NCBI GenBank assembly: GCA_002344625.1
Contig: DDUE01000052.1
Span: 1-29,088 of the forward strand
Direction: 5' to 3'
DNA length: 29,088 bases
From: Rhodocyclaceae bacterium UBA2346
Lineage (GTDB): Bacteria > Pseudomonadota > Gammaproteobacteria > Burkholderiales > Rhodocyclaceae
Part shown: positions 9,766 through 28,500 of the stretch, one piece after another
Position numbering within the stretch: the stretch's first letter is position 1
Layout of the letters: every line of letters begins with the position of its first letter
Position numbers and translations under genes: made by a program
The notes under the pieces: generated by a model
Told to the model about the DNA's origin: nothing
Database searches by the model: none
What the model saw: only the letters and a program-made list of their open reading frames with translations

Positions 9766-9772
9766 ACGGAAT

Positions 9773-12838: not shown

Positions 12839-12849
12839 GAGCGCGGCGA

Positions 12850-12901: not shown

Positions 12902-12907
12902 CCAGGT

Positions 12908-13282: not shown

Positions 13283-13390
13283 GGGCACCGTTTGGTGGGT
13301 AGGGAACCATTTTGTACCTTCTTTTCAGATGATTGCAGATGTGAAGAATAGTGGCTGTGACGCTGGGTCACAACCCCGAGGAGTTTCATC
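13283..13390. promoter_or_regulatory. Divergent hxlR/redox-protein promoter region
   Basis: About 100 bases between divergent genes. GGTAGGGAACC and a nearby TTGTACC (13298-13318) form a loose GGTA-N13-TACC inverted repeat typical in size for an HxlR operator. GAGGAG just before 13391 is the ribosome-binding site of the redox gene. Confidence 0.4.
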
Positions 13391-13627
13391 ATGACCAAGC
13401 AGGCTGTTTTCTATCACGCGGGCTGCCCGGTGTGCGTCGAAGCCGAGCAAAATGTCGCCCTGGCGCTCGACCGCGCACGCTACGACCTTGAAATCGTGCA
13501 TCTGGGCCAGCAGAAAGGCCGGATCAAGGACGCTGAAACCGCTGGTGTGAAGTCGGTACCGGCGCTCGTCCTCGATGGCCTGCCGTTTCACATCAACTTC
13601 GGCGCCGGGTTGGACGCGCTCAAGTAG
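13391..13627 (+). CDS. Small thioredoxin/glutaredoxin-fold protein with CPVC motif
   Basis: A 78-residue protein with a thioredoxin-like beta-alpha-beta start (AVFYHAGCPVCVEAEQNV) and active-site pair Cys12/Cys15, then the cis-proline element (VKSVPALVLDG). It is about the size of a glutaredoxin. It probably reduces or isomerises disulfides or senses thiol stress in the cytoplasm. Its divergence from an HxlR regulator that carries a candidate sensor cysteine fits a stress-induced redox pair. It ends just before a strong hairpin, so it appears monocistronic. Confidence 0.85.
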   Translation: MTKQAVFYHAGCPVCVEAEQNVALALDRARYDLEIVHLGQQKGRIKDAETAGVKSVPALVLDGLPFHINFGAGLDALK

Positions 13628-13649
13628 GCCGGCGGTTTGTCCTGATGCG

Positions 13650-13680
13650 CGGCTCCACGCGCCGTCGACGCGTGGAGCCG
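13650..13680. terminator. Strong hairpin between convergent genes
   Basis: CGGCTCCACGCG (13650-13661) pairs perfectly with CGCGTGGAGCCG (13669-13680), a 12-bp stem with a 7-base loop, located between the plus-strand redox gene and the minus-strand SnoaL-like gene. It probably terminates transcription from both sides. Confidence 0.65.
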
Positions 13681-13776
13681 GCCGGTCGGACCACGTTCGG
13701 TTACGGCGCTACGCCTTGTAGTGCCGCCGGGTTGTCATGATGTTCCGCCGATCGCGCCGCGCGATCGCGACGGTCC

Positions 13777-14253
13777 TCATTGATTGGCCGGTCGTGGCCG
13801 CGCCGACGAATGGTGATGCACGATGCGCCAGTCGTTCCCGTCTTTAACCAGCACGAAGCTGTACCGGGCCGGGGCTGAAAAGGCCTGGCCATCGGGCCGC
13901 ACGCCCGAGAATTCGTAGAGTCCGGCGATCACCGCATGATCGGCGGACAAGGCGTTGACGGTGCCGGCGTCGAGCAGCTTGACCTGGGTGCGCGCACGGG
14001 CCGCCTGCGCGAAATACGCATGCAGTGCCTCGGTACCGGCGGCGAGGTCGGGCGCCATCGTGCCGTACACCGTGGCATCCGCGGTATATGTCGCCGCGAT
14101 CTGCTCGGCATTGCCGGTGTTGAAGGCCTGCACCCAGCGTCCGACCGTTGCTTTGACATCCTCCTCGGGCGAGGCAAGTGCCAGACTCGATGCGCCAACG
14201 ACGCAGACGGTCGCCAGTCCGCCCAGCATCCTGCGTGTCATGCTGGATCGCAT
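13777..14253 (-). CDS. Exported SnoaL/NTF2-like (DUF4440-type) protein
   Basis: A 158-residue protein with a signal peptide (TRRMLGGLATVCVVGASSL, ending ALA) and a single NTF2-fold domain: VGRWVQAFNTGNAEQIAATYTADATVYG at the N-terminus, HAYFAQAARA in the middle and YSFVLVKDGNDWRIVHHHSS at the end. This is the SgcJ/EcaC-DUF4440 type, a small alpha+beta cone used by diverse enzymes and binding proteins; the substrate cannot be predicted. A second start at 14241 (MTRRML) is possible. No operon partners. Confidence 0.82.
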   Translation of the reverse strand: MRSSMTRRMLGGLATVCVVGASSLALASPEEDVKATVGRWVQAFNTGNAEQIAATYTADATVYGTMAPDLAAGTEALHAYFAQAARARTQVKLLDAGTVNALSADHAVIAGLYEFSGVRPDGQAFSAPARYSFVLVKDGNDWRIVHHHSSARPRPANQ

Positions 14254-14507
14254 CGTGGTTCCAGCAGTGAGCCTCGATTGCCGGGGTATCGTGCAAGTGG
14301 TCGACATGGCATGGTCTTCTTACCAATAGGGTTGATTGGCCCGTTGCCGCACCGCCAACCGATCGGGAAAAGCCTGGGATGGCCCGATTATGGGTCGGCA
14401 GTCCGGCCGGTAAGGTTTATTCTAGAACCAGAATCGAAGGGCCGGATGTCGCGTCGAAGCGCCGGGCGAGCCAGCCTGTCGAGCCCAGAACGGCTGGAGG
14501 AATGACA

Positions 14508-14858
14508 GTGCCTCAGAATCGAATACCGCAGATGAAGTTCTCAAGCGTTTATCCCATGTACGTCCAGAAGGTCGAACGCAAGAACCGGACACAACAAGAA
14601 GTTGACCAGATCATCTGCTGGCTGACCGGTTACAGCCACGAGGAACTGCAACGCCAGATCGAACTTGAAAACGATTTCGAGGCCTTTTTTGCCAACGCGC
14701 CATCGCTCAATCCGAATGCTGCGCTCATCAGAGGGGTCGTGTGCGGCGTGCGCGTCGAGGAAGTCGAAGATCCCCTGGTGCGGAAAGTCCGTTACCTGGA
14801 CAAACTCATCGATGAACTTGCGAAGGGAAAGGCACTGGAAAAGATTCTGCGGCAGTAG
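14508..14858 (+). CDS. DUF2200 domain protein
   Basis: A 116-residue soluble protein covering the whole DUF2200 family: [20 protein letters not shown], then [20 protein letters not shown], and ending in a helical [18 protein letters not shown] segment. Its function is unknown. The GTG at 14508 is preferred because GGAGGA sits at good spacing before it and families usually begin just ahead of the R-I-x-x-M element; an ATG two codons upstream (14502) overlaps the ribosome-binding site and is less suitable. It is convergent with nrdJ. Confidence 0.8.
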
Positions 14859-14964: not shown

Positions 14965-17841
14965 TCAGCCGCAGGTCCCCACCGCGCCGCATGCCGTGCA
15001 GAAGTCGCAGCCGTCCTTGCGGATCACCGAGTAGTTGCCGCACTCGGTGCACAGCGCGCCCTGCATCAGCACCGGGTCGCTGTCCTTGTGCGGGGCTTCG
15101 AGGATGCCCATTTCGCGGATGGGGTAGCCCTTTTCGTCGAGCACGCCGAGCATCGCGTAGCGGTGGATCATCAGTTGCGCAATGTAGGCGACGGTGCTGG
15201 GGTAGTTCTGCTGGCGCTTGGTGCCGGGCACGAAGGCCATGAAATCGCCCAGCGGCTCGGGGTAGTTGAGCAGCTTGCGCAGTTTCATGCCGATCCAGGC
15301 AGGGTCCATCACGCGCATGTCGAGCGCCAGGATGCGGGTGAGGCCATCGAGCGCGCGCGGGTAGTTGCCGGACAGCCACACCGAATAGGGGCGGGTGACG
15401 CCGTCGGGCAGGGTGATTTCCTTCAGGCCGAGCACGAAGTCTTCGCCGGTGGCGGGGTTGGCGATGTCGACCGTCCATGACAGGGTGCCGTCGGTGCCGG
15501 TCTTGGGCTCCTGCAGGCTGAAGAGGGTGTCCAGCACCGGGGTGGGCGTGCCGTCGACCGCGAGTGCGCCGAGGTGCTCGCAGCGGTAGCGCACCACCTG
15601 GGCGAAGGCCGACACCACGCCGGGGAACAGCTTCTTCTCGCCATGCGGCGGGAAGGGCATCTCGAAGGACTTCTCGCCGATGGTGCGGGCGAGCGTGTCG
15701 AGCTTGAGCGCGAGCCAGCCACGGTCGTTGGCGCGCATGTCCATCGACAGGGTCTTGGCGACCGCGCCGAGGCCGCGCGGCTGGTCGGCGCCGTTGACCC
15801 ACACTTCAAACGGGAAGCCATTGACGCTCACCGGCTGGGTATCCACATGGCCGATGAAGAGCGCGAACTCGCCTTGCGGCGACTTCAGCATGTAGGTCCA
15901 GGCCATGTTGCCGTCCGGCATTTCGGGGCGGCCGGGCCAGCGCAGGCTGGACAGCACCGGAGCGGGCAGGGTCTTGATCGACAGGCGGCGGTTGGGATCG
16001 TTGAGCTCGACGTCCTGCGGCTTTTTCTGCTCGGGACTGGGCGTGACCGACAGTACCGAACCGAGCACGCTGTTGGGCCGGTAGGTGGCCAGGCCCTTGA
16101 GGCCCGATTTCCAGGCCGACATGTAGAGGTCTTCGAAATCGGTGTAGGGGTAGTCGGCAGGGACGTTCACCGTTTTCGAGATCGAGGTGTCGACATACGG
16201 GGCGACCGCCGCGACCATGTCCTTGTGCGCCTGGGCCGAAATCTCGAGCGCGGTCACGAAGTAGTCCGGCAGCTTGTCGATGTTGCCGCCCAAGTGCTTG
16301 TACAGGCGCCAGGCGTAGTCCTCGACCGCGTATTCCTTGAAAGTGCCGTCGGCCATGCGCTTGCGTCGGGTATAGGTGTACGAGAACGGCGGCTCGATGC
16401 CGTTGGAGGCGTTGTCGGCGAACGCGAGCGAGATCGTGCCGGTGGGGGCGATCGACAGCAGGTGCGAATTGCGGATGCCGTGCTTGCGGATCTTGTCCTT
16501 GACCTCGGCCGGCAGGCGCGAGGCGAAGTTGCCGCCCGACAGGTACATGTCGGCGTTGAACAGCGGGAAGGCGCCGCGCTCGACCGCGAGCTCGACCGAA
16601 GCCAGGTAGGCGCGGTTGCGCATGAAGTCGGAAATCCGGGTGGCCATCTGGCGCGCTTCGGGGGTGTCGTAGCGCAGCCTGAGCATGATCAGCGCGTCGC
16701 CCAGGCCGGTGAAGCCGAGGCCCACGCGGCGCTTCGACTGGGCTTCCTTCTCTTGTTCCTTGAGCGGCCAGTGGGTCACGTCGAGCACGTTGTCGAGCAT
16801 GCGGATCGCGACGTCGACCACCTTGCCGAAGCCGTTGAAGTCGAACTCGGCCTGGTCGGAAAAGGCATGCCTGATGAACGGGGTGAGGTTGATCGAGCCC
16901 AGGTCGCAGCAGCCGTAGGGCGGCAGCGGCTGCTCGGCGCAGGGGTTGGTGGCCTCGATGGCTTCGCAGTAATACAGGTTGTTGTCCTGGTTCATGCGGT
17001 CGAGGAACAGGATGCCCGGCTCGGCATGGTCGTAGGTCGAGCGCATGACCTGGTCCCACAGGTCGCGCGCGCGCACCTTGCGATACACCCAGGCGCCGTC
17101 GTCGAGCTGATAGGCGCCGTTGCGCTTGATTTCGTCGATGGGCTCGGCCTTGTGCACCAGTTCGACATCGCCGTCGGCCTCGACTGCCTTCATGAAGGCA
17201 TCGGTCACGCCCAGCGAGATGTTGAAGTTGGTGAGATCGCCCTGGTCCTTGGCGTGGATGAATTCCTCGATGTCCGGATGATCGCAACGCAGCACGCCCA
17301 TCTGCGCGCCGCGGCGGGCACCGGCGGACTCGACCGTCTCGCACGAGCGGTCGAACACCCGCATGTACGACACCGGGCCGGAGGCGTTCGACTGGGTGCC
17401 CTTCACCAACGCACCCTTGGGGCGGATGCTGGAGAAGTCGTAACCGACTCCGCCGCCGCGGCGCATGGTTTCGGCCGCCTGCGCCAGCGCCGTATAGATG
17501 CCGGGCCGGCCATCCACCGATTCGGTGACCGAATCGCCCACCGGCTGCACGAAGCAGTTGATCAGCGTGGCCTGCAGTTTGGTGCCGGCGGCGCTGTTGA
17601 TGCGCCCGGCGGGCACGAAACCCATTTCCTGCGCTTCGAGGAACTTCGCTTCCCAGTGGGCGCGCTTGTCGTCGGCTTCGACCGTGGCCAGCGCCCGTGC
17701 GACACGTGTGCGCACCTCGTGGATCGACGCCTCGTCACCCTTGGCGTATTTCTCGACCAGGACCTCGGCGCAGATTTCCTGCGGGGCGAGGGTGCTGGCG
17801 TCGGCTCTGGACGTGGCGAGTTTGTCGGTCTTGGCGCTCAT
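14965..17841 (-). CDS. nrdJ: Class II (adenosylcobalamin-dependent) ribonucleotide reductase
   Basis: A 958-residue enzyme that converts ribonucleotides to deoxyribonucleotides, with the radical made from adenosylcobalamin so that no oxygen is needed. Visible motifs: [11 protein letters not shown] (redox Cys96), the thiyl-radical loop NPCAE (Asn299, Cys301, Glu303), the adjacent [11 protein letters not shown], and a C-terminal cysteine-rich tail ([19 protein letters not shown]) that probably holds zinc and relays electrons. The ATG at 17841 with GGAGACC upstream gives the expected N-terminus; the frame continues upstream without similarity. It was the divergent neighbour of a B12-synthesis operon before a Mu-like element inserted between them. 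An NrdR box lies upstream. Confidence 0.95.
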
Positions 17842-17978
17842 TGCGGGTTGGTCTCCGGGTGTTTTTACGGTGATCTGAACTGAGGCGAGCATAGCGCGGA
17901 ACGGGGTTGGATGCAAAAATATAAAAATCAAATAAAACAAAAAGATAATATAAATTACGGGGTGTCAAGTGTTATTTG

Positions 17979-17996
17979 AATACTATATATAGTAGC
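17979..17996. promoter_or_regulatory. NrdR box upstream of nrdJ
   Basis: The 14-bp palindrome TACTATATATAGTA (17981-17994) contains CTATATATAG, matching the NrdR-box core C-w-A-T-A-T-w-G pattern exactly. It sits in an AT-rich region about 140 bases before the nrdJ start. NrdR represses ribonucleotide reductase genes when dATP is high. Boxes usually come in pairs about 31 bp apart; a second clear copy was not found. On the minus strand TTGACA (around 17965) with TATCTT 15 bases on could be the promoter. Confidence 0.7.
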
Positions 17997-18064
17997 TCTT
18001 TCCGGTGCTCGTAGGCTCCGGATCCCGCGTCGATCCTGGGTTCGGGCCGCGATGTGAGTGGTGC

Positions 18065-18128
18065 TAGGCGCGCGGAACCAAAACACACCACACGGCTAAA
18101 ATAAAACGCGACACGCGGAAAAAAAACG
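18065..18128. repeat. Left end of the Mu-like element with transposase-site-like repeats
   Basis: Contains AAAACACACCA (18080-18090), shared in inverted form with the right end, and two GCGGAA-type motifs: GCGCGGAACC (18070-18079) and ACGCGGAAAAAAAACG (18113-18128). The latter resembles MuA-binding sites, which end in a CGAAA core. The expected Mu terminal TG is not present at this boundary. Confidence 0.6.
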
Positions 18129-18170
18129 AGGCATAGAAAAGCAGAACCCACGGTACGGAATGGCCTTCCT

Positions 18171-18253
18171 CTGACGCTCGAAGGCTTCGCGTTGCCCTAT
18201 TTCAAGCCCGTATATAATAGGGGCGAGACGCGAAGGCGATAGGGCAGCGTCAG
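18171..18253. promoter_or_regulatory. Overlapping hairpins at the 3' end of the last element gene
   Basis: CTGACGCT (18171-18178) and GCCCTAT (18194-18200) can pair with AGCGTCAG (18246-18253) and ATAGGGC (18239-18245), an interrupted 15-base inverted repeat. CTTCGCGT near 18185-18192 can instead pair with ACGCGAAG near 18228-18235, so the two folds compete. A TATAATAGG stretch lies in the loop. It overlaps the stop of the coiled-coil gene and could be its terminator or part of a small RNA; neither is proven. Confidence 0.35.
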
Positions 18254-18834
18254 CCGATCGCGCTGGCAACCATGCTGTCGACTTCGGCTTGCAGTTCAAC
18301 ACGTCGCGCATGTAGTTCTGTGCGCTCCCCGGAAAGTCCGGCGATCATCTTCCGCCGCTCTGCAACTGGCATTCTTCCATCGGGCCAGCGTCCCTCAAGC
18401 GCGATTTCGATCTTCTCCATGATCTTTTCGTGGGCTTTGTCTGGAAAAAACGCAAACAAAGCTTTGGGAACAGACATGCGGTGAAGGTACCCCGGGGCAT
18501 TACCCTTGACCGGAATAGTCAAACCCGACCCTTGCGCAAGCTCGAAGTGACTCCACGGAAGCGAGAATACAGCCTCATCCAACTTTTCCACGGCACCCGC
18601 GACCCCGACAGCCTCACGCCCAAACAACGGCGCAACCCATTCACTCCCTTCACGGATGATCCATTGCCGCACGAACTCTGAATAATCCTCGAATGACACC
18701 GGCTCAGCCCGAAGGCGCGCTATCGTCCGATCAATCTCAGAGATACGCTCATCTATCCGACCAACCTCGGACCGCAGCGTTACCAGCCTGGCGCGAACCA
18801 GCTCGATCGCATCCTTCATATCCGTCTTGCTCAT
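18250..18834 (-). CDS. Coiled-coil protein of unknown function, last gene of the element
   Basis: A 194-residue soluble protein. N-terminal residues (about 5-45: LVRARLVTLRSEVGRIDERI and on) and the C-terminal third (about 150-190: RRKMIAGLSGERTELHARR) are heptad-rich coiled coils flanking a compact central domain. I recognise no family and no catalytic motif. It follows the I-like gene by about 38 bases with AAGGA at good spacing before its third ATG (18834), so it is probably the last gene of the Mor-led operon. Long coiled coils at both ends suit a structural or scaffold-like protein, but this is speculation. Confidence 0.6.
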   Translation of the reverse strand: MSKTDMKDAIELVRARLVTLRSEVGRIDERISEIDRTIARLRAEPVSFEDYSEFVRQWIIREGSEWVAPLFGREAVGVAGAVEKLDEAVFSLPWSHFELAQGSGLTIPVKGNAPGYLHRMSVPKALFAFFPDKAHEKIMEKIEIALEGRWPDGRMPVAERRKMIAGLSGERTELHARRVELQAEVDSMVASAIG

Positions 18835-18872
18835 CATCATCTTCCTTATCTACTTGTAATGGCGTCTGCCGC

Positions 18873-19739
18873 CTAAATGTCGATGTCCCGAAGCCCGGCT
18901 ATCGCGGGCTGAGCCGCTCCCAAAAAGCCCACATGCCGCAAGTACCAACGGCCCGGCGTGGGGTTGCTAGAGTGCTCCGGGCTGTAGAAAGCAGCGCTGC
19001 GTTTTTTGTAGCGTCCAAGCTTCACATCCTCTGCAAACCGCGCGTCCACTTGCCGGGTTCGCATCAATAGCTTCCCGTCACGCGATGCCATGAGCCCGTC
19101 AACCCACCCCACAGCAGGCTTATCCGTTTCCGGATGGCCAATCACCAAGGGCGCTTCACGCTCGGTCGGTCGGTAGTTTCGGGCTATATCGTCGATGTCA
19201 GCTTGCGAGAACGTGATACTTTGCCCTTGATCGCTGACATGTGAGCCCGCCTTGAAAATCTCGATCCAGTTTCCGATGATCGGCGCGTTTCCAGCCGGCG
19301 CCCCCGCGTTGTATGGCTCGCTGAAGAACACGCCCCCTTCGGCATCCTCGCGAAACGCAGCACAACCCGTTCCACTCAGAACCGCCACGTGCCGAAGGGC
19401 CTCGGCATAGCTCACGTTGTGCTCTTTAGAGAAGCTCTGCGCTCGCGCGTCAAGCTGCTGATCCGAAAACGGTCCCGCATCCTCTGAGAACGCCGCGCCT
19501 GGCGGTGGCGTGCTTTCCGCAACGAACTTCACGGCATCCCAATACGGCACACCAATTTTCGCCGCAAGGATATTTGCCGATGCGTGCAATACATCGTCGG
19601 GCCGTGCTTGGCCGTTCTCACTAAATCCAACGCGTGTTGACGACTCCATCAGCACCGTCCGAGCAAGCGCTTCCTGATAGGTGATGCGCGCACTGAAGGC
19701 CAGCGTCTTTGCTCGCCTGTCCAACTCCATATCATCCAT
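18873..19739 (-). CDS. Mu I-like domain protein with three 45-residue N-terminal repeats
   Basis: A 288-residue protein. Residues about 157-288 match the N-terminal domain of Mu-type phage I proteins (head protease/scaffold): NWIEIFKAGSH, REAPLVIGHPETDKPAVGWV, LGRYKKRSAAFYSPEH and RHVGFLGAAQPAI. Residues about 4-138 are three tandem repeats with an exact 45-residue period: Leu6/51/96, Ala10/55/100, Tyr21/66/111, Phe39/84/129, Glu41/86/131. Comparable A..A....Y.EAL helices usually sit at the C-terminus of I proteins, so the order looks permuted and the C-terminal scaffold is missing. The gene starts 5 bases after the Mor stop with a strong AAGGAG, so they form one operon. A role in assembly or in interfering with helper-phage assembly is inference. 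Confidence 0.7.
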   Translation of the reverse strand: MDDMELDRRAKTLAFSARITYQEALARTVLMESSTRVGFSENGQARPDDVLHASANILAAKIGVPYWDAVKFVAESTPPPGAAFSEDAGPFSDQQLDARAQSFSKEHNVSYAEALRHVAVLSGTGCAAFREDAEGGVFFSEPYNAGAPAGNAPIIGNWIEIFKAGSHVSDQGQSITFSQADIDDIARNYRPTEREAPLVIGHPETDKPAVGWVDGLMASRDGKLLMRTRQVDARFAEDVKLGRYKKRSAAFYSPEHSSNPTPGRWYLRHVGFLGAAQPAIAGLRDIDI

Positions 19740-19744
19740 TTTGC

Positions 19745-20068
19745 TTAATCTCCTTCATCATGGCCTTTTCTGGAAGAAGCAACGATCTCCCTGACCCGCC
19801 GTTCCGACAGCCCATAAGTGCGCGCCAAAATGCGAAAATTTCGGCCGTCAAACTCTTTTCGAATCGCCTCATCGCGCGATTCGCTGAATGAACAGCTCTT
19901 CCTCATGTAGAGCTGTTCCCCCCCGAACTCCTCAACCATCAGGCTCACACAGGTCCTTGCAACATCCGGTACGGCGTCCGCGAATACCGGTGCCCGATCC
20001 ATCAACACATCAGTCAAATGTTTCAACAGCCGATCGTCAAAGCGGTCCACCTCGGGGTCTTTCGCCAT
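19745..20068 (-). CDS. mor: Mor-family transcriptional activator
   Basis: A 107-residue DNA-binding protein of the Mor/C family, which in Mu turns on middle or late transcription. The C-terminal helix-turn-helix is clear (FDGRNFRILARTYGLSERRV with REIVASS), and the N-terminal half (LLKHLTDVLMDRA, the VARTCVSLMVEEFGGEQLY strand) forms the dimerisation part. The start at 20068 is preferred because AAGGA lies 6 bases upstream; 20107 is possible. It is the first gene after a terminator-like hairpin and downstream of two palindromes, so it is probably separately controlled. In the absence of late genes its target here would be its own operon or a helper phage; this is inference. Confidence 0.78.
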   Translation of the reverse strand: MAKDPEVDRFDDRLLKHLTDVLMDRAPVFADAVPDVARTCVSLMVEEFGGEQLYMRKSCSFSESRDEAIRKEFDGRNFRILARTYGLSERRVREIVASSRKGHDEGD

Positions 20069-20084
20069 CGCGCATCCTTGAATT

Positions 20085-20146
20085 CGTTCACTGATGAACG
20101 ACACCATAGGAAATGGTGGCGGTCGCGTACATTGAACGAGTTCAAT
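20085..20146. promoter_or_regulatory. Two palindromes upstream of mor
   Basis: CGTTCA-CTGA-TGAACG (20085-20100) and ATTGAAC-GA-GTTCAAT (20131-20146) are perfect palindromes about 46 bp apart, centre to centre, directly before the Mor gene on the minus strand. Both have GTTCA/TGAAC arms, like half of the repressor operators near 25400. They are likely operators or activator sites controlling the Mor-led operon. Confidence 0.55.
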
Positions 20147-20163
20147 TATTGAGAACAGGCCAA

Positions 20164-20214
20164 TTCGGGCACCCGAACGAACAAAGGGCGGAGCATCACG
20201 CCCCGCCCTTTGTT
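20164..20214. terminator. Terminator after the early operon
   Basis: AACAAAGGGCGG (20180-20191) and CCGCCCTTTGTT (20203-20214) are a perfect 12-bp stem with an 11-base loop. A smaller hairpin TTCGGG-CA-CCCGAA (20164-20177) follows. The stem lies 60 bases after the stop of the 20274-20987 gene on the minus strand, so it probably separates the transposition operon from the Mor operon. Confidence 0.65.
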
Positions 20215-20273
20215 GTTGGCGGCCAATCTAGCCACCGCCAAGCCTTTAGAACCACCTCACCGATACCTGACCA

Positions 20274-20987
20274 TCACCCAGCCCCTTTAACGGCGCTACG
20301 GGCCTTTTCGGCGGTCTTGGTGCTCCGGTCCGTGGGTGCGTTTTCAGCTCCCTCGTCCAGGCCGGCCACTTCCACCCGGATCAGATCCTTCACGTACTTG
20401 TCAGTCAGCGCCTCGCGCTTCTTCGCGAGCTTCTTCGACGTTTCCGTGAAGACCATCGGCCGGGCCACGCCCGGCGCGTCGGGTGACTCTTCAAATCCGA
20501 TCGAGAGGCCCCGATTTTTGAGCTTCGCCATGAACGCGGTCCAGAACACGTGATCCTGCGCGGCCGTCTTCGACCTGATCCAGTCATCATAAAGTAGGGT
20601 TGCGGCTTCTCCGACCGTCTCCAGATCGCTCGAATCCAGCATGCTCACCAGCGCCCGAACCGTCTTGCGCAACGCCAACTGTTCGCGCAAGAGTTGTTCG
20701 ATCTGCACGTTAAGCCGGCCGCTGTAAGTTTCAATCCCTTCGGAAACCTCTTCGAAGCGCCCCACCAGCGCATCATGTGCAATCTCGATCAGGTTCAGGA
20801 CATGCACGTCCACGTCTCGCGTACAGCTATCGGTCGCCAGGGCCTTGGCAGCAAACAACGCCGACCGGCTATGACCCGCCATGAAGTAAAGATCACGGCT
20901 CAACTCACTAATGTCCGGGCCGCCGATCTTGCCCCTGATAGCCCACACGTGCCCAACCAAATCGGGTTCCATCGCTTGAGCGTTCAT
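20274..20987 (-). CDS. Hypothetical protein of the Mu-like element early operon
   Basis: A 237-residue soluble, largely helical protein with no recognised domain. It has a central coiled-coil-like stretch (IEQLLREQLALRKTVRALVSML) and a charged C-terminal tail (TDRSTKTAEKARSAVKGAG). It overlaps the start of GemA by 4 bases (ATGA-type), so it is co-transcribed with the transposition genes. In Mu-like phages this stretch of the early operon holds variable genes often involved in gene regulation or host takeover, but I cannot assign one. Confidence 0.65.
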   Translation of the reverse strand: MNAQAMEPDLVGHVWAIRGKIGGPDISELSRDLYFMAGHSRSALFAAKALATDSCTRDVDVHVLNLIEIAHDALVGRFEEVSEGIETYSGRLNVQIEQLLREQLALRKTVRALVSMLDSSDLETVGEAATLLYDDWIRSKTAAQDHVFWTAFMAKLKNRGLSIGFEESPDAPGVARPMVFTETSKKLAKKREALTDKYVKDLIRVEVAGLDEGAENAPTDRSTKTAEKARSAVKGAG

Positions 20988-21430
20988 TTCTGCAACTCCT
21001 TTGCACTGGATTGCGCAAGCATGCGAGTCAGACCGGTAATGACCTTCGACGCTTCAGCCCGCGTCATCTCGCCCAGATCGGCGACCTTCACCGTATGCCG
21101 GGCGAAGGCAAGCAGGCGGAAATCCTTAAGGCCTGACCAACTCGCCCGGCGGGCCAAACCTTCGAGTGCGGTCCACTGGCGTTCGGTCGGCATCGGTGCC
21201 CCTCGCGCCAGACCCTTCGCGCGGTCAACCTGCGCCCCTTCCGGAAGGGCTTTCCCTTGGATCAAGCGTTCCAGGCAATCCGCAAGCCGGGAAAGCTGCT
21301 CGAAGCTCATTTCCCGGCAACTGGTCTTGCCAGTCTGTGAAAGCAGCACCGTGCGGTAAGTCGCCTCGTCGTAATCCAACTGCTTCGCCAGGGCATGCAC
21401 TTTGCCGATCAGCGTGTTTCGCGTAGTCAT
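20984..21430 (-). CDS. gemA: GemA-family regulatory protein (Mu gp16-like)
   Basis: A 148-residue protein matching the Mu gp16/GemA family: LIGKVHALAKQLDYDEATYR at the N-terminus, with LDYDEATYRTVL and the C-terminal VITGLTRML. In Mu, GemA affects host DNA topology and gene expression during the lytic cycle. It overlaps both neighbours by 4 bases (ATGA-type junctions with the MuB-like and hypothetical genes), consistent with one transposition operon. Confidence 0.8.
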   Translation of the reverse strand: MTTRNTLIGKVHALAKQLDYDEATYRTVLLSQTGKTSCREMSFEQLSRLADCLERLIQGKALPEGAQVDRAKGLARGAPMPTERQWTALEGLARRASWSGLKDFRLLAFARHTVKVADLGEMTRAEASKVITGLTRMLAQSSAKELQK

Positions 21431-22533
21431 CCCGCCACCCTCCCGTAAGCCTTTGCAATCGCAATAAAATTCTCTGGAATGAGGTCGACTTCGCGGGAAC
21501 CCATTTCTCCGAGAAGCTCAACGACGGCGCGCAATCCGCCATCGCGACCCGGAAGGCGGGCAATCGTCAGCAGCGCATCGCGCCACTTCTTGCCCTTCAG
21601 CCCCCGCCAGTCCATGAACGCTTCGATATCCTCCGCGTCGTTCGATTCCAAGGAGATATGTCGGGTTCGACTTGCCAAGGCGTCATAGTCAGTCCGTTTT
21701 CCCCACACCGCGCCGTGAAATGCAGGGTTGCCAATCATCAGCACGGGAATTCCGGCCTGTTCGTTGATGTAGGACATGAACCTAAGCCCGGTTCCCCGAT
21801 CGGCAGGAATACCGCATTCATCCGCAATGAGAAAATCACCCGGCCTGACCTGGCTGAGAATGCGGGAAAGCTTTGTGCTCACGTTTCCCTTGATGTCGCC
21901 GTAAGGCTCCAGCGCTTCCAAGATTGAATCAAGCACACCGATATCACCCTTGGTGCCTGGCGAGAACTCGAAATACACCGCCCCCGCTTCGTTCGGGCGA
22001 CGCGGATAGTCGAAGGCGTAGCGCTTCGCCGCAAACGATTTCCCGATGCCGTACATGCCGGTAATAGCGAACAACGCACGCGATTTGTGCGCCATCCGGC
22101 AAGCACCATATACACGCTTGTAGATCGCGGTTTCAGCATGGTCATCTTGACCTTGCTCGGTCGCGTCCTCCTCATCCGCCCACTTCTTGAGCGCGATAAG
22201 GTGGATTCGGGCCGTGTCGTTATCCCACCAACTCCAACCGCCATCTTCGAGACGCTCTTCGTGAAGAATGCGTTTAAGCTGCGTCATGGATGGACCGCTC
22301 TCGCACTCCGCCACGATGCGCGAAACACGCACGCGACCTGCCGTAAAGGCATTGATTCGGTCGACAATCTCTTGCGCGCCCTTTTCGCCGCCGATCTCTG
22401 CCCTTTGCTTCTCTTTCCGCTCAAAATCTGCCTTGGCTACGGCCTGCTTTCGACTGGCCTCCTCTTCGGTAACCGGTCCGTTGTTGCCATCGGACCATGA
22501 CACCTCTTGCCGAACTGCCGGTTTCTTGGTCAT
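21427..22533 (-). CDS. MuB/TnpB-like transposition ATPase
   Basis: A 368-residue AAA+ ATPase, partner of the transposase. It has a Walker A (GMYGIGKS, residues 159-166) and a Walker B (DFLIADE, 233-239), preceded by a basic, helical N-terminal part with a DNA-binding-like region (AFTAGRVRVSRIVAECE). MuB-type ATPases choose the target DNA, stimulate the transposase and help protect the element from self-insertion. The gene begins within a few bases of the transposase stop; the ATG at 22533 has GAGG upstream, and one at 22548 overlaps the transposase stop. It is shorter and differently built from Mu's own MuB, closer to BcepMu/Tn552-type ATPases. Confidence 0.85.
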   Translation of the reverse strand: MTKKPAVRQEVSWSDGNNGPVTEEEASRKQAVAKADFERKEKQRAEIGGEKGAQEIVDRINAFTAGRVRVSRIVAECESGPSMTQLKRILHEERLEDGGWSWWDNDTARIHLIALKKWADEEDATEQGQDDHAETAIYKRVYGACRMAHKSRALFAITGMYGIGKSFAAKRYAFDYPRRPNEAGAVYFEFSPGTKGDIGVLDSILEALEPYGDIKGNVSTKLSRILSQVRPGDFLIADECGIPADRGTGLRFMSYINEQAGIPVLMIGNPAFHGAVWGKRTDYDALASRTRHISLESNDAEDIEAFMDWRGLKGKKWRDALLTIARLPGRDGGLRAVVELLGEMGSREVDLIPENFIAIAKAYGRVAG

Positions 22534-22537
22534 ACTG

Positions 22538-24916
22538 TCACGCCTCATCTACGGTTCCTGCCACTGCAAATGGCTGAATCAAGTCGGTCTGGCGGCTTCC
22601 AGGGCCGTCAGACCGCTCCTTCTGCTTTCGCGCCTTTTCCTTTTCATACTCCTCTTCAAAGTTGTCGAATGGGTTCCTTGTTCTGGGTGTGGGCTTCTCG
22701 TACTTGAAGTCAGGCAGCAGTGCAGCTTTCGCCATCGGCTCTTGAGCCTTGGCCGGCACTTCAAGTCGGCTGATCGCGCCTTCCTTGTCCAAAAATTCGC
22801 CTGCTCGCACGCGTTCAACCGGGTTCGGGTTATCGCCGCGCAACTGCCTGTCCATTGCCTGAAGTTCTGTCGACAAGCCGATATGGCGATCATTCGGGCC
22901 GGGTGCGGGCGTCGCATCGCCGGTTACGCGCGCCTTTTCGGCCACGTAATTACGCATTGACTCTTGCAGGTCGACGTTCGGCGCTGTCCCTCTGAGATAG
23001 CGGATATGGCTCTTTCTCAGGGCGTTCAGCCGGGCCGCTTCCTTCGCGCCTTCCGGGTCGAAGAAACCAAACGCTCTCCGCTCGTGGATCACGTCGTAAG
23101 CCCATTTCCCATTGATCCGACGTACCAGAATGATCGCTTCGGGCCGCCACTTGGCAATTCGGAAGGTTTGGCGGGTTCCGATCAACGGCACCAGCGCATC
23201 CGCCATGTACCACTTGCCGCCCTCCTTTGCGCCCAACTGAACGCCCTGAGTTCTTACTTTCAGTTGCCTTTCCACTGAGAAGGCCAACAAGAACACCGGC
23301 ATTTCTGCACGCGTGACCCTTGCTTGCTCGCGCATGGCTTCGTAGCGTTCGTTCGGCGACACCCCGCCCAGGTGGCCACGCTGGGGCAGGTTATGAAAGA
23401 AGGCCATCGCTTCGGCAAAGTCCCTGTCAAATGCTTCGGCCGTGCCCGGATACGGATCGGGCTCGCGTCCGACCTTGCCGACGTGTTTGTTCATACGGTC
23501 ACCGCCGATGTAGCCGGGGAGCATCGAAAGAACCTTCTCCTTGGCACTGAACGCCCCTTCAACGGGCTTTGCCGCCGCGTTGTATGGCTTTGCCCGAATC
23601 AGCGCGCGTCCGTCGCCTGTTCCGCCCTGTTGATCGGCGTCGATCGTCTGTGCCTCGTCCAGGCCGGCCGCCCACTTGGCCTCCAAGGCAGCAATTTCGT
23701 TCAATTTCAGCTCCAGTTCGTAACCAATCCCCTTCAGCGCATCAAAGCCGTCGACCAGCTCTGCGCCGATATACTCGGGTCCGTTATCGAGGTAGAGCTT
23801 GCTTGGAACACCCCAGGCCATGCACAGATCAACGAACGAACGCGTTACGTCGGCTTGTGTGACCGATCGGCCGGGCTCCGGGTGCAGCAAGGTGTAGAAA
23901 CATCGGTTCGTGGCTAGGTCGTACCAGGCGATCATTCGTGGCGTGTAGGTCGAGCCATCGGCGCGCGAAAGCAGGATATCTAGCGGGTGCACGTCACCAA
24001 CAATGGCTTCTCCCGGCATCAACTCGCTTCGTGTGCGGGCGATACGTGGTTGATAGATATCGGAGTAGCGCTTGGCGTCACGGTCATGCACGGACACGGG
24101 CCGTGCATCCTGATGCATCTCGACCAGGTGTTGACCGACATCGCAGTTATTGATGGTCGCCTCGCTCCAACCCGCCTCACGACAAAGCCGGGCAAACTCA
24201 GCGCTTGCCATCAGGCGCACCTTGCTTCGACTGGCACCCCCGCTAACCCACAACCCGCGCACATATCGGGCGATTTCTTCCGCCAATCGCGTTTTCTCGG
24301 GCAGCGCCAAAGGGCATTCCTGATCCCACTTGCGGTTCACCAAACGGCGCGGTTTGGTCTCTAAGGCGCGCTCCTTGCGCATCAGGGCGCGAACGCCCCC
24401 CTCTTCGTACAGCCTGCAAAACGCGCGCAACTTGGCTTCTGTAAAGCGCATCGGCTTACCGTCGGTCGGTCGGACGTGGGTTCTTTCCGCGATGCTGCGC
24501 AACAGTTCGCCACGCCCCGCCGACCGGGACCGGTACTGAAGTGCCGGCATAATGATGCCGACCTTCCATTCCGCTTCACGGTATTGCTTCGCGAGCACCT
24601 CCGGCCGCTCGCCCACCCGTACCGGCTGCAAAGTCTTTGCATTGGGCGCAATCGCAGGAACCGCCAGCGCTTCGCGGTTCGCTTCAAAGAACTTTTGATA
24701 CAGCTCGCGCGGGAGCGTGCGTGCATCAACCAGGTACGCGCGCCCCTGCTTGCGGACAGCGAGCGTTGCACCGTGCCAGGTGTGGCCTTGTGTGGCGCGG
24801 AGAATGGCTTTCTGCGCCCCTTGCACCGTACACGCGGCCATTTCCGCCAGTTGCCCAATCGTCAGCCAGTACAACGCATCCTGTGCCGGCGATGTCTGTA
24901 GCGAATCAACAGTCAT
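22538..24916 (-). CDS. DDE transposase (MuA/Tn552-type, BcepMu-like)
   Basis: A 792-residue transposase. The retroviral-integrase-like core shows the DDE triad: Asp308 in VGDVHPLDI, Asp377 in LDNGPEY and Glu453 in AKPVEGAFS. The N-terminus starts with a winged-helix-like segment (YWLTIGQLAEMAACTVQGAQ) that should bind the element ends. The C-terminal domain is a beta-barrel-like region with a charged, probably disordered tail that could contact the partner ATPase. The ATG at 24916 overlaps the stop of the preceding small gene (ATGA). No stop, frameshift or loss of triad residues is visible, so it is potentially active. Confidence 0.9.
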   Translation of the reverse strand: MTVDSLQTSPAQDALYWLTIGQLAEMAACTVQGAQKAILRATQGHTWHGATLAVRKQGRAYLVDARTLPRELYQKFFEANREALAVPAIAPNAKTLQPVRVGERPEVLAKQYREAEWKVGIIMPALQYRSRSAGRGELLRSIAERTHVRPTDGKPMRFTEAKLRAFCRLYEEGGVRALMRKERALETKPRRLVNRKWDQECPLALPEKTRLAEEIARYVRGLWVSGGASRSKVRLMASAEFARLCREAGWSEATINNCDVGQHLVEMHQDARPVSVHDRDAKRYSDIYQPRIARTRSELMPGEAIVGDVHPLDILLSRADGSTYTPRMIAWYDLATNRCFYTLLHPEPGRSVTQADVTRSFVDLCMAWGVPSKLYLDNGPEYIGAELVDGFDALKGIGYELELKLNEIAALEAKWAAGLDEAQTIDADQQGGTGDGRALIRAKPYNAAAKPVEGAFSAKEKVLSMLPGYIGGDRMNKHVGKVGREPDPYPGTAEAFDRDFAEAMAFFHNLPQRGHLGGVSPNERYEAMREQARVTRAEMPVFLLAFSVERQLKVRTQGVQLGAKEGGKWYMADALVPLIGTRQTFRIAKWRPEAIILVRRINGKWAYDVIHERRAFGFFDPEGAKEAARLNALRKSHIRYLRGTAPNVDLQESMRNYVAEKARVTGDATPAPGPNDRHIGLSTELQAMDRQLRGDNPNPVERVRAGEFLDKEGAISRLEVPAKAQEPMAKAALLPDFKYEKPTPRTRNPFDNFEEEYEKEKARKQKERSDGPGSRQTDLIQPFAVAGTVDEA

Positions 24917-25146
24917 GCCGCCTCGCCGCTCGCCAACTTCGCCACGCTCGCACGCCACAAGGCATGACCGCGTTCATTACCGGAAAAATAGGCGTCGAGC
25001 TGGACCGTTCCTTCACGGTATGGACCTTGGATTCGCACCGCCTGAATACGGAAGCGCAGAACGTCTAGCGCGCCGCGCCAGTATTCGGCGCTGCGCTTGT
25101 CGCCGTTGCGTTTCGCCGCGTCGACGATCGCCTCAGGCGTGTTCAT
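24913..25146 (-). CDS. Small hypothetical protein in the early operon
   Basis: A 77-residue protein (from the ATG at 25146) with no recognised domain. It begins NTPEAIVDAAKRNGDKRSAEYW, looks mixed helical/strand, and ends KLASGEAA. It overlaps the Ner-like gene upstream and the transposase downstream by several bases, which strongly supports being real and translationally coupled. A start at 25161 is possible. The function is unknown. Confidence 0.65.
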   Translation of the reverse strand: MNTPEAIVDAAKRNGDKRSAEYWRGALDVLRFRIQAVRIQGPYREGTVQLDAYFSGNERGHALWRASVAKLASGEAA

Positions 25147-25360
25147 GGCCTTCGCCCTCAACGATCACGCCATCCTTGATTCCGAGCTTCACGGCTATTT
25201 CGTGACCAAGGCCCCGCGAACCGCCATTACGGCCGCTCAGAACGTTGCTTACAGAAATCTTGGTGTAGCCGTGCGCCTTGGCCCAGGCTGAAAGTGTCAA
25301 TCCCCTTCGAAGCCAGTCTGCGCGCACCTCTTGCGGGGTTCGTAACTTACGTGCTTTCAT
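25133..25360 (-). CDS. Ner-like/BcepMu gp16-family DNA-binding protein
   Basis: A 75-residue regulator with a helix-turn-helix (LSAWAKAHGYTKISVSNVLS) resembling the Ner/BcepMu gp16 group: an RTPQEVRADW N-terminus, then the HTH and the GLGHEIAVKLGIKDG tail. In Mu-like phages this cro-like protein shuts off early and repressor transcription. The ATG at 25360 is chosen because AAGGAG lies 9 bases upstream and this gives the same length as Mu Ner. It is divergent from the repressor gene, with two 20-bp operators between them, and is the first gene of the transposition operon. Confidence 0.8.
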   Translation of the reverse strand: MKARKLRTPQEVRADWLRRGLTLSAWAKAHGYTKISVSNVLSGRNGGSRGLGHEIAVKLGIKDGVIVEGEGHEHA

Positions 25361-25384
25361 GGTCGCATTCTCCTTCAACTGTTA

Positions 25385-25430
25385 ATTCACTCAAACGGGT
25401 GAATACATATTTTCACCCAAACGGATGAAT
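25385..25430. promoter_or_regulatory. Two 20-bp repressor/Ner operators
   Basis: ATTCACTCAAACGGGTGAAT (25385-25404) and TTTCACCCAAACGGATGAAT (25411-25430) are near-identical 20-bp copies, each an inverted repeat of the ATTCAC/GTGAAT type around AAAC, with a 26-bp period. They lie between divergent Ner-like and repressor genes, so are almost certainly the genetic switch. The second copy contains the repressor ATG (25425). TTCACT (25386) and TATTTT (25408) 16 bases later could be a repressor promoter. Confidence 0.75.
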
Positions 25431-26093
25431 GTCAACCTGCCACAAGAGTTTTCTGCGCGCCTTCGTGAGGAACGAAAGCGACTCGGGATGAGCCAAACGA
25501 CTTTCGCAAAGGCGGTTGGCATTCACCTCAACAGCCAGTCACGGTACGAGAAGGGAGAACGCGCTCCGGATACGGCCTATCTCGGAGCGATAGCCAAGCT
25601 TGGCGTCGATATGTCGTTCTTGCTTACCGGGGATCGCGGGAATGATTCACAGTTGGAGATTGAGTCCGCCCGCGCCAAATCTCACGCGTTGGTCCATGTT
25701 CTCAGCCAGATACAAGGATTCCTCGGGTTCTGGCCGGCTCCCATGTCGTACGAATTCGAGAAAGCGATGCAGGATGTGTACGAGGCTCACCAGAAACAAT
25801 GGGAAGATCCGATGGCTTTGGATAGGGCGGATGTCAAACTGCTAAACATGCTCCAAAGAAGCCCGTCGACGCTGCCAACTGTGCAAGAACTTGCGGAGAT
25901 TCTGTGGGGGCTGGAACTCGTCGAAAAAAAACTTGGCGTCAAGCTAGCCCCCTCTGTGAGGGCAAACTCATTTCATAAGGCTTGCCAAGAAACAAAGCTG
26001 TCAGGTCGAGCGCTTCGACGTGAAGAGATAGAGCGAATCGTCCGGACAGAAGCCTGCCTCATCGCCTCGAGCAACGGCGATGATTACAGCTAG
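25425..26093 (+). CDS. Phage-type repressor (Xre-family HTH)
   Basis: A 222-residue repressor. The Xre helix-turn-helix is at residues about 8-60 (LREERKRLGMSQTTFAKAVGIH, shown in part; then QSRYEKGERAPD and the LLTGDRG end). The C-terminal half is helical with no LexA-type Ser/Lys peptidase motif seen, so induction is unlikely to be through RecA-driven self-cleavage. The ATG lies inside the second operator without a ribosome-binding site, so translation is probably leaderless, as in lambda cI. It is transcribed towards the right end, away from all other element genes, as in Mu. Confidence 0.85.
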   Translation: MNVNLPQEFSARLREERKRLGMSQTTFAKAVGIHLNSQSRYEKGERAPDTAYLGAIAKLGVDMSFLLTGDRGNDSQLEIESARAKSHALVHVLSQIQGFLGFWPAPMSYEFEKAMQDVYEAHQKQWEDPMALDRADVKLLNMLQRSPSTLPTVQELAEILWGLELVEKKLGVKLAPSVRANSFHKACQETKLSGRALRREEIERIVRTEACLIASSNGDDYS

Positions 26094-26370
26094 TTGGTTG
26101 AAGTTGGTGAGGTTGGTCTTCTGCAGTTGGTTTGCACCATCTCTGTGCATCCGCCGCCCGATCGCCCTTTGCCCGATCCGACCCACCTTATAGGCTTCAA
26201 TCTCAACACAGACGCGGCTTTCGCGGGCCTTTTCTCTCCCGCCAATGGCCTTGCATCCCGTGCAATGCGTTTGCATTTTCCGCCTTGATCCGTTCCAACA
26301 CGTTCCGCCATATACCGCTACGTCCCGGAATTTTCCCGCAGCAATGGTGTGTTTTCTTTCTGCCCCCTTA
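26094..26370. repeat. Right end of the Mu-like element with transposase-site-like repeats
   Basis: No gene is supported here. TGGTGTGTTTT (26345-26355) is the inverted copy of a left-end motif. Further in are TTTTCCGCC (26276-26284), CGTTCC...CGTTCCGCC (26291-26309) and TTTTCCCGC (26331-26339), the reverse of the left-end GCGGAA motifs, probably transposase-binding sites. The inner 180 bases show nothing clear. Confidence 0.6.
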
Positions 26371-26374
26371 GTGC

Positions 26375-26404
26375 TTGCCGTCCGGGCGCGGCGCGGCGTA
26401 TAGT
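26375..26404 (+). promoter_or_regulatory. Sigma-70 promoter of the cobalamin operon
   Basis: TTGCCG (26375-26380) and TATAGT (26399-26404) are separated by 18 bases, a good sigma-70 pair. Transcription would start near 26411, at the 5' end of the riboswitch. The Mu-like element ends directly before the -35 box, so any upstream activator sites would have been displaced. Confidence 0.7.
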
Positions 26405-26410
26405 TCGGCC

Positions 26411-26640
26411 AGCATCGATTGGGATGCCCTGCGGCGCATCCGCGCCCCGGGGTGAAACGGGAAGTCCGGTGACGTACGAGTGCATGCTCGTGCCATTCCG
26501 GCGCAGCCCCCGCTGCTGTAAGCCCGACGGCGCCGTCAACACTAAAACCCACTGGAGCAGGCTGCTCTGGGAAGGGTGACGGCGACCGGACGAAGGCGAG
26601 CCAGAAGACCGACCCTTTCGACGATACAGGTAAAGAGACC
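26411..26640 (+). ncRNA. Cobalamin riboswitch
   Basis: The leader shows the conserved adenosylcobalamin aptamer elements in order: a GGATGCC entry strand, GGGGTGAAACGGGAAG with TCCGGTG (26449-26470), GCAGCCCCCGCTGCTGTAAG (26503-26522), GGGAAGGGTGACGGCGA (about 26569-26585) and the B12 box AGCCAGAAGACCGACCC (26599-26615). It should shut off the cobO-cobW-cobN operon when cobalamin is plentiful. The exact limits are approximate. Confidence 0.92.
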
Positions 26641-27423: not shown

Positions 27424-28500
27424 ATGTCCAATCGCCCGAAGATCCCCGCCACCATCGTCACCGGCTTTCTCGGCAGCGGCAAGACCACGCTGCTGCGCCA
27501 CATCCTCGCCAACGCCGGCGGGCGCCGCATCGCGGTCATCGTCAACGAGTTCGGCGAACTCGGCATCGACGGCGACATCCTGCGCGGCTGCGGTATCGGC
27601 TGCGACGAGGACGGCGGCGAGCGGCGCGGCGCGCTGTTCGAACTCGCCAACGGCTGCCTGTGCTGCACGGTGCAGGAAGAGTTCTACCCGGTGATGCGCG
27701 AACTCATCGCCCGCCGCGACGACATCGACCACATCCTGATCGAGACTTCCGGCCTGGCGCTGCCCAAGCCGCTGGTACAGGCCTTCAACTGGCCCGAAGT
27801 CAAGCACGCGTGCACCGTAGACGCGGTGGTCACGGTGGTCGACGTGCCGGCCGCCGCGGCCGGGCAGTTCGCTGCGAATCCGCTCGCGGTCGACGCCCAG
27901 CGGCGCGCCGACCCCAACCTGGACCACGAATCGCCGCTGCACGCCTTGTTCGAGGATCAACTCGCCGCCGCCGATCTGGTGATCCTATCCAAGACCGATC
28001 TCGCCGACGCGGCGGCGCGCGCTGCGGTCGAGGCCTTGGTGCGCGCGGAAGTGCCGCCCGAGGTCAAGATGGTGGCGAGCGAGCACGGGCGGATCGACCT
28101 CGACCTGATCCTGGGCCTGAACGCCGCCGCCGAGGACGGCATCCACCTGCGTCCCAGCCATCACGACCACGGTGACGGCGACGACCATGACCATGATCAC
28201 GACGCGTTCCAGTCGGTGTCGGTGGCGTTGCCGCGGGTCGATCGCGAGCGGCTGTTCGCGGTGCTGCACGAGCTGGTGCGAGCCCATGCCATCTACCGGG
28301 TCAAGGGTTTCGTCGCGCTGGCGGACAAGCCGATGCGCCTGGTGGTGCACGGCGTGGGACGCCGCTTCGACAGCTACTTCGACCGCCGCTGGCGGGCCGG
28401 CGAGACGCCGGCCACCCGCCTGGTGCTGATCGGTGCGGACCTCGATACCGCCGCGCTGGCCGCCGCGCTACAGGCGGCGGCTCTGGTCGAGACGGCCTGA
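27424..28500 (+). CDS. cobW: CobW-family GTPase (COG0523)
   Basis: A 358-residue metal-chaperone GTPase of the G3E/CobW family: a P-loop GFLGSGKT (residues 14-21), the family's CxCC metal site (GCLCC, Cys78/80/81), a switch region NEFGELGIDGD, and the guanine motif SKTDL. A His/Asp-rich stretch (HHDHGDGDDHDHDHD, about 244-260) suits metal binding, and a CobW C-terminal domain follows. It probably helps deliver cobalt to the CobN chelatase. It follows cobO by 34 bases, and its stop overlaps the cobN start. Confidence 0.93.
   Translation: MSNRPKIPATIVTGFLGSGKTTLLRHILANAGGRRIAVIVNEFGELGIDGDILRGCGIGCDEDGGERRGALFELANGCLCCTVQEEFYPVMRELIARRDDIDHILIETSGLALPKPLVQAFNWPEVKHACTVDAVVTVVDVPAAAAGQFAANPLAVDAQRRADPNLDHESPLHALFEDQLAAADLVILSKTDLADAAARAAVEALVRAEVPPEVKMVASEHGRIDLDLILGLNAAAEDGIHLRPSHHDHGDGDDHDHDHDAFQSVSVALPRVDRERLFAVLHELVRAHAIYRVKGFVALADKPMRLVVHGVGRRFDSYFDRRWRAGETPATRLVLIGADLDTAALAAALQAAALVETA

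Follow-up and report, generated by a model that had tools for sequence, protein, structure and literature searches.

A Mu-like element next to nrdJ

We analyzed a 29,088-nucleotide stretch of DNA from Rhodocyclaceae bacterium UBA2346 (the window), which is part of contig C16 of a metagenome-assembled genome (MAG) that is 52.8% complete in 89 contigs. The window carries a Mu-like element of 8306 bp (18065 to 26370) that is bounded on both sides, with nrdJ on one side and a cobalamin riboswitch and cobalamin genes on the other. Its core, as read from the sequence, consists of a divergent cI/Ner switch, an intact MuA-type transposase together with MuB, matched ends, a short target-site duplication, and a late block composed of Mor, an I-like protein, and a 196-aa protein (u196). 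We conclude, with a probability of roughly 0.7, that the element belongs to a family of phage satellites which recurs across genera and uses Mu-type transposition to move.

The element holds ten open reading frames (ORFs), all of which are open: cI on the plus strand, and Ner, u82, MuA, MuB, GemA, u237, Mor, the I-like gene, and u196 on the minus strand. The cI-like repressor (25425 to 26093) was recognized with both Pfam and PHROGs, and the Ner-like helix-turn-helix regulator (25133 to 25378) matched phrog_925 (E = 2.4e-21); the two palindromes of 18–20 bp that lie between them (25385 to 25429), called as stem-loops, are perhaps the operators of the switch. The MuA-type transposase (22538 to 24958; phrog_310, E = 3.7e-35) has residues D322, D391, and E467, which do not vary in the three closest sequences and which are taken, by position, as the putative DDE triad. 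It is followed by a MuB-like ATPase (21427 to 22548; phrog_296, E = 2.2e-13, and a weak match to Pfam Phage-MuB_C) and GemA (20984 to 21430; PF06252, 6e-14). The late block starts with the Mor-type transcription activator (19745 to 20107; PF08765, 4.3e-15, and phrog_532), continues with the I-like protein (18873 to 19739), which matches the head maturation protease family phrog_976 (E = 1.4e-60), and ends with u196 (18250 to 18840), a protein with two long helices that serves as the marker gene of the family. The original prediction had stated that both ends, the switch, the transposase, the MuB-like ATPase, GemA, and Mor were kept, and that genes overlap, with 5 bases between Mor and the I-like gene; the gene content, the AAAACACACCA ends, the overlaps, and the gap were all borne out.

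When the ten ORFs were scanned with Pfam and PHROGs, the only virion, packaging, or lysis family to be recognized was that of the I-like protease, the remaining matches being at chance level (E of 0.03 or worse), and the same scans revealed no integrase or primase family. A tblastn search of the window with reference proteins gave no terminase, portal, head, or tail match, although this search has low sensitivity, as it missed a tape measure gene in the relative L304 that PHROGs detects. The earlier statement that the element has no terminase, portal, capsid, tail, or lysis gene agrees with these searches. The unknown proteins of the window had no PADLOC match, which speaks neither for nor against an anti-phage role.

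The sequence AAAACACACCA is present exactly and at equal depth, 15 nt inward from each end of the element. When the ends were read as TA...TA, flanked by the 4-bp repeat GTGC (18061 to 18064 on the left and 26371 to 26374 on the right), 20 of 30 end positions were identical, and 1 of 150 shuffles was as good; a 5-bp duplication with aligned ends was no better than shuffles for either the window or its relative L176. The element had been predicted to span 18066 to 26370 with a 5-bp duplication. The right border holds, but the start lies one base earlier, and although GTGCT is indeed present at 18061 to 18065 and at 26371 to 26375, it includes the first base of the element, so that the duplication reads as GTGC, which is the best alignment. 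Judged by these alignments, the target duplication is probably 4 bp rather than 5 bp.

The I-like protein has a rearranged layout

Phage-type I proteins have an N-terminal protease followed by a scaffold, which in B3 is a nested product, and often carry one short motif at the very end. The I-like protein of the window carries three copies of this C-terminal motif at its N-terminus, followed by a low-confidence linker and an assemblin-type protease domain, and has no coiled-coil scaffold. AlphaFold modeled it as three helical hairpins and a compact domain, with a predicted local distance difference test score (pLDDT) of 80.8 and a predicted template modeling score (pTM) of 0.48. In the PDB, the compact domain was most similar to herpesvirus assemblin-type capsid proteases (probability 1.00, TM-scores low, E < 0.001 for one match). 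Throughout the alignment, His202 and Ser248 do not vary, and by analogy they are putatively catalytic. Given this rearranged form, one simple deletion cannot produce the I-like protein.

The distribution of the motif was examined in 161 I genes, comprising the best 80 of 190 genome loci, the best 80 of at least 597 viral loci, and contig C86 of the same MAG; two of the loci are cut by contig ends, and the profile used to detect the motif derives from short forms. Six genes have 2–4 motif copies at the N-terminus and end 0–13 residues after the protease, in 64 a single copy lies close to the C-terminus (at a median distance of 2 residues), none has the motif at both ends, and in the remaining 91 no copy was found. 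All six genes with N-terminal copies come from genome loci, and none was among the best 80 viral loci. The motif profile matched no non-I ORF at E < 1e-3 in the fetched loci. In the phage collection, 69 records match the window I-like protein and none covers 80% of it, the match being to the protease part alone (30 of the 69, among the matches listed), and at least 43 protein clusters, that of the window included, cover 80% or more of the query among the best 120 of 2020.

Other family members have short I proteins as well. Those of L178, L304, L311, and L312 are protease-only forms of 196–204 residues, and the PF10123-type I of L309 and L316 ends at profile positions 209 and 168 of 330, respectively; since these PF10123-type proteins stop early and other members have protease-only forms, the scaffold was lost in more than one I lineage. 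The ratio of nonsynonymous to synonymous substitution rates (dN/dS) of the short I gene was 0.23 over 277 codons between L096 and L098, and the ratios among relatives were 0.26 for MuA and 0.10 for MuB. u196 matched no Pfam or PHROG family at E ≤ 0.02 and no PADLOC family; a scaffold-like role may be considered for it. By their anatomy, the rearranged I and u196 could be genes that modify the assembly or packaging of a helper.

A family of bounded elements in seven genera

With the window transposase alone as the query, no relative was found in genome contigs, viral contigs, or the phage collection, and alignments and whole-genome searches were needed. The window transposase matched 11 of 150 related genomes, its own included, and in a set of 395 genomes of the family the transposase profile had matches in 24, of which 12 were strong. 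A u196 profile matched 21 of the 395 genomes, in 18 of 68 genera; 17 of these 21 were examined (14 plus the window's own genome, G011, and G056), leaving out G204, G205, G214, and G344. Element ends were sought in the window, L176, L178/L179, L304, L309, L311, L312, and L316, and L314, L315, and L318–L321 were annotated by tblastn alone, with L321 having no match; L322 and L323 did not enter the analysis.

Seven bounded elements of 8.1–9.3 kb were obtained, in seven genera, the window included. Besides the window element (8306 bp; duplication GTGC) these are L176 in the one-contig genome G011 (8224 bp; GCGG), L312 in G026 (8237 bp; GAAGT), L309 in the one-contig genome G019 (8132 bp; CCCGC), L178+L179 in G056, which come from contigs of a single MAG that overlap by 115 bp (about 8660 bp; ACAG), L304 in G306 (9327 bp; GTATT), and L311 in G252 (9322 bp; TTATG). 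The paired ends were reached by 1 of 150 shuffles for the window and by 0 of 150 for both L176 and L312; the apparent sizes of L309, L304, L178/L179, and L311 stand on the weaker ground of end likeness. Common to all seven are Ner, a MuA-type transposase, MuB (phrog_296), a Mor-type activator (matched through PF08765, phrog_532, or phrog_836), an I-type protease, and u196; MuB of L178 and L309 and Mor of L176 are open frames that overlap their neighbors. GemA was recognized in all but L304 and L312, and a 58-aa gene, u58, is present in every bounded element but the window. No terminase, portal, or head gene was detected by tblastn in the seven elements. The transposases of L304, L309, L311, and L312 match phrog_310, with DDE_2 detected in the three that were run on Pfam, and are distant from that of the window, which indicates that the late block goes with several transposases. 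The prediction that the same compact gene order would be found elsewhere was therefore upheld, as it recurs in other genera, at different as well as shared sites, in elements whose ends match and are flanked by short target duplications.

Truncated relatives of the Mu small terminase gp27, which correspond to the N-terminal part of PF11985, were observed in L312 (12619 to 13005), L177, and L185, the gene of L312 lying within the bounded element, and a match to B3 terS was observed in L305 (2246 to 2533). Unlike L312 and L305, the window yielded no small terminase relative.

Landing sites

The element lies in the divergent region between nrdJ, which encodes an adenosylcobalamin-dependent ribonucleotide reductase (14965 to 17940, minus strand; TIGR02504), and a cobalamin riboswitch (26404 to 26631), downstream of which is CobW (27424 to 28500). 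The cI end is about 33 bp ahead of the riboswitch, so that the region between nrdJ and the cobalamin genes is split with neither gene hit. The G+C content of the element is lower, about 0.55–0.62 as compared with about 0.61–0.72 in the surroundings (1-kb steps).

Three of the seven bounded elements are upstream of nrdJ and two (L178 and L304) are upstream of groES; L309 is between the genes for isocitrate lyase and peroxiredoxin, and L311 is near a PBP4-type gene. The u196 end faces nrdJ in the window, L176, and L312, and the cI end faces nrdJ in L182, L316, and L317, the last two of which belong to one genus and may represent a single event. When the L175 flank was compared with 27 nrdJ promoters, it scored 25 in one orientation and 13 in the other, with 200 simple shuffles scoring at most 18. 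Mu-like elements of several genera were thus observed in the nrdJ promoter region in both orientations (the window, L176, L182, L190, L312, L316, L317, and L175).

The nrdJ promoter of the window contains the palindrome ACTATATATAGT (17982 to 17993), which we take to be an NrdR box, 71 bp from the element. The corresponding gap is 42 bp for L176, 84 bp for L312, 69 bp for G001, and, by eye, about 320 bp for L316, and these varying gaps indicate that the nrdJ promoter is a preference, which either the choice of target or survival may have produced, and not a fixed site. In G001, another species of the same genus, a cI-side end that is alike at 44 of 50 positions adjoins nrdJ in the opposite orientation and, as measured by a shared flank word, lies 12 bp nearer nrdJ than the end in the window. 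This end is found at L190, 1 to 800; behind it are a PIN-family toxin gene and then the contig edge, so that G001 is a relative by its end alone.

Candidate helper phages

On contig C86 (7.1 kb) of the same MAG, GemA and Mor are accompanied by a 250-aa gene that has no NCBIfam match and by a phage-type I of 327 aa, whose C-terminus matches the motif columns at E = 6.8e-7. The original prediction had proposed asking whether a full Mu-like prophage co-occurs, and these Mu-like phage genes, on another contig of the MAG, agree with it. Three of the seven genomes with the N-terminal-motif form have a phage-type I, namely this MAG, Thauera phenylacetica B4P, and MAG SZAS-76; among the other relatives it was found in at most 8 of 149, a count in which those eight were not inspected singly. 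Genes in common with co-resident or related phages were noted for L095, L097, and L098.

In L097 of MAG SZAS-76 (4928 to 14708) we observed a major head protein of its own, a short I, and a tape measure. No transposase or integrase was recognized in the seven ORFs scanned, and the start of the tape measure gene is 82% identical in DNA, over 594 bp, to that of the co-resident phage L108; L097 is perhaps mobilized in trans.

Interpretation of the element and alternatives

The occurrence of elements of similar size and gene order in several other genera argues that the element is probably a recurring hitch-hiker and not a broken virus, and it probably redirects the heads of a helper phage, although packaging and hijacking are inferred. 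According to this model, cI would keep the element silent until a Mu-like phage is induced or enters the cell, whereupon the element would replicate by transposition using its own MuA and MuB, and Mor would turn on the I-like gene and u196 late. The I-like protein could then bind the major head protein of the helper through its several copies of the end motif of the helper scaffold, and, lacking a scaffold itself, might together with u196 displace the normal scaffold and protease, giving a smaller shell, in a manner comparable to the competition between SaPI1 CpmB and the 80alpha scaffold. The helper terminase would finally pack the genome of about 8 kb; the narrow size range of the family is what a fixed small head would impose.

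Several observations weigh against a satellite. Particles, packaging, helper induction, and transposition are so far predictions. No phage-type I was detected in four of the seven genomes with the N-terminal-motif form, the short form being alone in T. aminoaromatica S2, Aromatoleum toluvorans Td21, Comamonas aquatica, and one MAG, and, since the MAG of the window is 52.8% complete in 89 contigs, the co-residence of C86 could be a binning error. The window MuA has no Pfam match, u196 has no structural match at E ≤ 0.001, and its dN/dS (L305 vs L308) could not be estimated because the sequences are too diverged. Not every member conforms to the common layout: cI was recognized in six of the seven bounded elements but not in L176, and in L175 no I separates Mor from the u196 that follows. 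Among those ORFs of the bounded elements that were scanned with PHROGs, a tape measure of 658 aa was seen inside the otherwise head-less L304 (4345 to 6321) and a tail-tube protein inside the otherwise head-less L311 (11202 to 11798; phrog_185, E = 8.8e-13), so that some members of the family do possess an isolated tail gene. In L316 (G397), which measures about 13 kb judging from its gene positions, a scaffold-less I is accompanied by a head-tail adaptor, a tape measure, and a 148-aa protein that matches phrog_209, labeled portal (163 positions, far under the usual portal length); a search for its ends gave nothing above shuffles.

The ends of four elements also count on this side. Their scores did not exceed those of the best shuffle (17 vs 18 for L304, 15 vs 17 for L309, 16 vs 20 for L178/L179, and 18 vs 18 for L311), a second pair of ends tied in L309, and another pair was higher (17/30) in L178/L179; repeat lengths of 4, 5, and partly 6 were tried. 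The ends of these four were accepted because the cI-side ends are alike across elements (T, G or A, G run; by eye), and for L178/L179 the 17/30 pair was dropped in favor of a TA-TA pair scoring 16 because the ends of the latter resemble those of L176.

It is unlikely that the element is a domesticated Mu-derived transposon, which would move only inside the cell and by other carriers, with Mor, I, and u196 having another role or being passengers. Its own MuA and MuB, ends, and target duplications suffice for transposition, and both the absence of a detectable phage-type I in four of the seven genomes and the failure of Pfam, PHROGs, and tblastn to reveal a packaging gene in the window agree with such a view; however, even diverged members retain a late activator, a capsid protease, and u196, and the truncated gp27-type small terminase of L312 and the tail genes of L304, L311, and L316 make most sense near virions.

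Decay of a full Mu-like prophage, which would have lost its virion genes by deletion and left an eroding remainder, is quite improbable. Every recognized gene has Mu-like phage relatives, the MAG has a single MuA match, and some relatives keep single tail genes, all of which a decayed prophage could explain; moreover, in L182, which adjoins nrdJ, a closely related early region is still followed by genes for head, portal, and tape measure. Yet L182, as far as its contig reaches, has no I gene and no u196 match, so the window is not simply L182 minus genes. Nor does erosion fit with ten ORFs that are all open, with a layout of similar size in seven genera, with an I rearrangement that is not a deletion, or with the dN/dS values of 0.23, 0.26, and 0.10 for the short I, MuA, and MuB of relatives. 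We looked for the outcome expected of decay, namely single, variably deleted copies that match full prophages, and this was not what was found; the proposal of a satellite in preference to random deletion is supported instead by the recurring layout and the rearranged I.

The least probable alternative is an anti-phage element, whose I-like protein and u196 would block the heads of Mu-like phages entering the cell from assembling and so protect the host, the element itself not being transferred in particles, for although a scaffold-less protease with several capsid-binding motifs could make a good decoy, the narrow size range, the truncated small terminase, and the tail genes of relatives are left unexplained.

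Comparison with known phages and satellites

A phage satellite moving by Mu-type transposition, as we interpret the element, shares with Mu-like transposable phages (Mu, B3, and the Thauera/Azoarcus type in L106, L123, L108, and C86) the cI/Ner switch, MuA and MuB, GemA, Mor, an I-type protease, and a short duplication. It has the Mu-type transposase, target protein, and matched ends of such phages but not virion, packaging, and lysis genes of its own: the searches of the window brought up no terminase, portal, head, tail, or lysis gene, the I of the element is rearranged and scaffold-less, and its length is 8.3 kb as compared with 38.4 kb for B3. Like a satellite, it is a mobile element without a full set of virion genes that recurs as a discrete, bounded unit at different sites.

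P4-like satellites carry an integrase, the alpha primase, and Sid/Psu/delta. The Pfam and PHROG matches of the ten ORFs include no P4-type integrase or primase and no Sid, Psu, or delta family, which places the window element outside this group. On the reading proposed here, both would be small satellites of a tailed phage with a size-determining factor of their own, which in P4 is the Sid scaffold (PMC7552001).

By analogy, the closest mechanism in the literature found may be that of SaPI1 CpmB, which has a C-terminal motif in common with the 80alpha scaffold and competes for a site on the capsid protein (PMC5644958). The window element and SaPI1 or other PICIs would thus both be small, without a full set of virion genes, and equipped with a protein that reuses the capsid-binding end of the helper scaffold; in contrast, the window element moves by a Mu-type transposase and has the motif fused in several copies to a protease domain. 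As described in PMC6092414, PICIs are marked by an integrase, an Stl/Rpr repressor, and a primase/replication module, and the window element, with no integrase or primase family in its ten ORFs, is not one of them. Capsid-forming PICIs are named in a 2024 review (PMC11389934); the relative L097 has its own head and tape-measure genes beside the short I, whereas the window element has none.

The satellite families listed in the portion of that review available are P4-like, PICI, cfPICI, PLE, PICMI, VEIMEs, and Tycheposons, none of which is tied there to transposable phages, and satellites of transposable phages are likewise not named in the accessible parts of PMC11389934, PMC6092414, PMC10689766, PMC10367356, and PMC12135933. 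A literature search by titles and the starts of abstracts, which left most subscription literature outside and does not prove absence from print, found no description of them. We therefore put forward tentatively, at somewhat less than even odds, that the family is an undescribed class of satellite that replicates by transposition, has heads matched in size to genomes of about 8–9 kb, redirects the capsid of the helper with a rearranged protease whose scaffold is gone and whose capsid-grabbing tail has been multiplied and moved to the other end, and prefers the control regions of a small number of housekeeping genes, nrdJ and groES, in either orientation. If this is true, satellites exist that copy themselves by transposition, needing no replication origin and gaining new insertions with each round, and the rearranged protease would provide a direct handle on how Mu-type heads set their size.

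Other features of the element and its relatives

Two further genes of the window element encode proteins without an assigned function, both on the minus strand. u82 (24913 to 25161), a conserved small protein between Ner and MuA, has relatives in L182, L316, and L317, and u237 (20274 to 20987) has a partial relative in L313. A terminator-like hairpin (20185 to 20204, minus strand), based on a consensus match alone, is located between u237 and the Mor-I-u196 unit; 11 such hairpins were counted in 18000 to 26450 as compared with 9.2 in shuffles, which is about the chance frequency.

In Aromatoleum toluvorans, L306 and L307 (contigs C54 and C71) were considered as copies of one element and this was rejected, since the two agree at 89% over the 1390 bp where the transposase begins, which indicates two related Mu-like elements in one genome. 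A tRNA-like stretch noticed by eye near the u196-side ends of L304 (about 4260 to 4335) and L311 was not called by ARAGORN and was set aside. Within the L178 relative of the element, Rfam sRNA-Xcc1 was matched at 3162 to 3249 with 81.1 bits.

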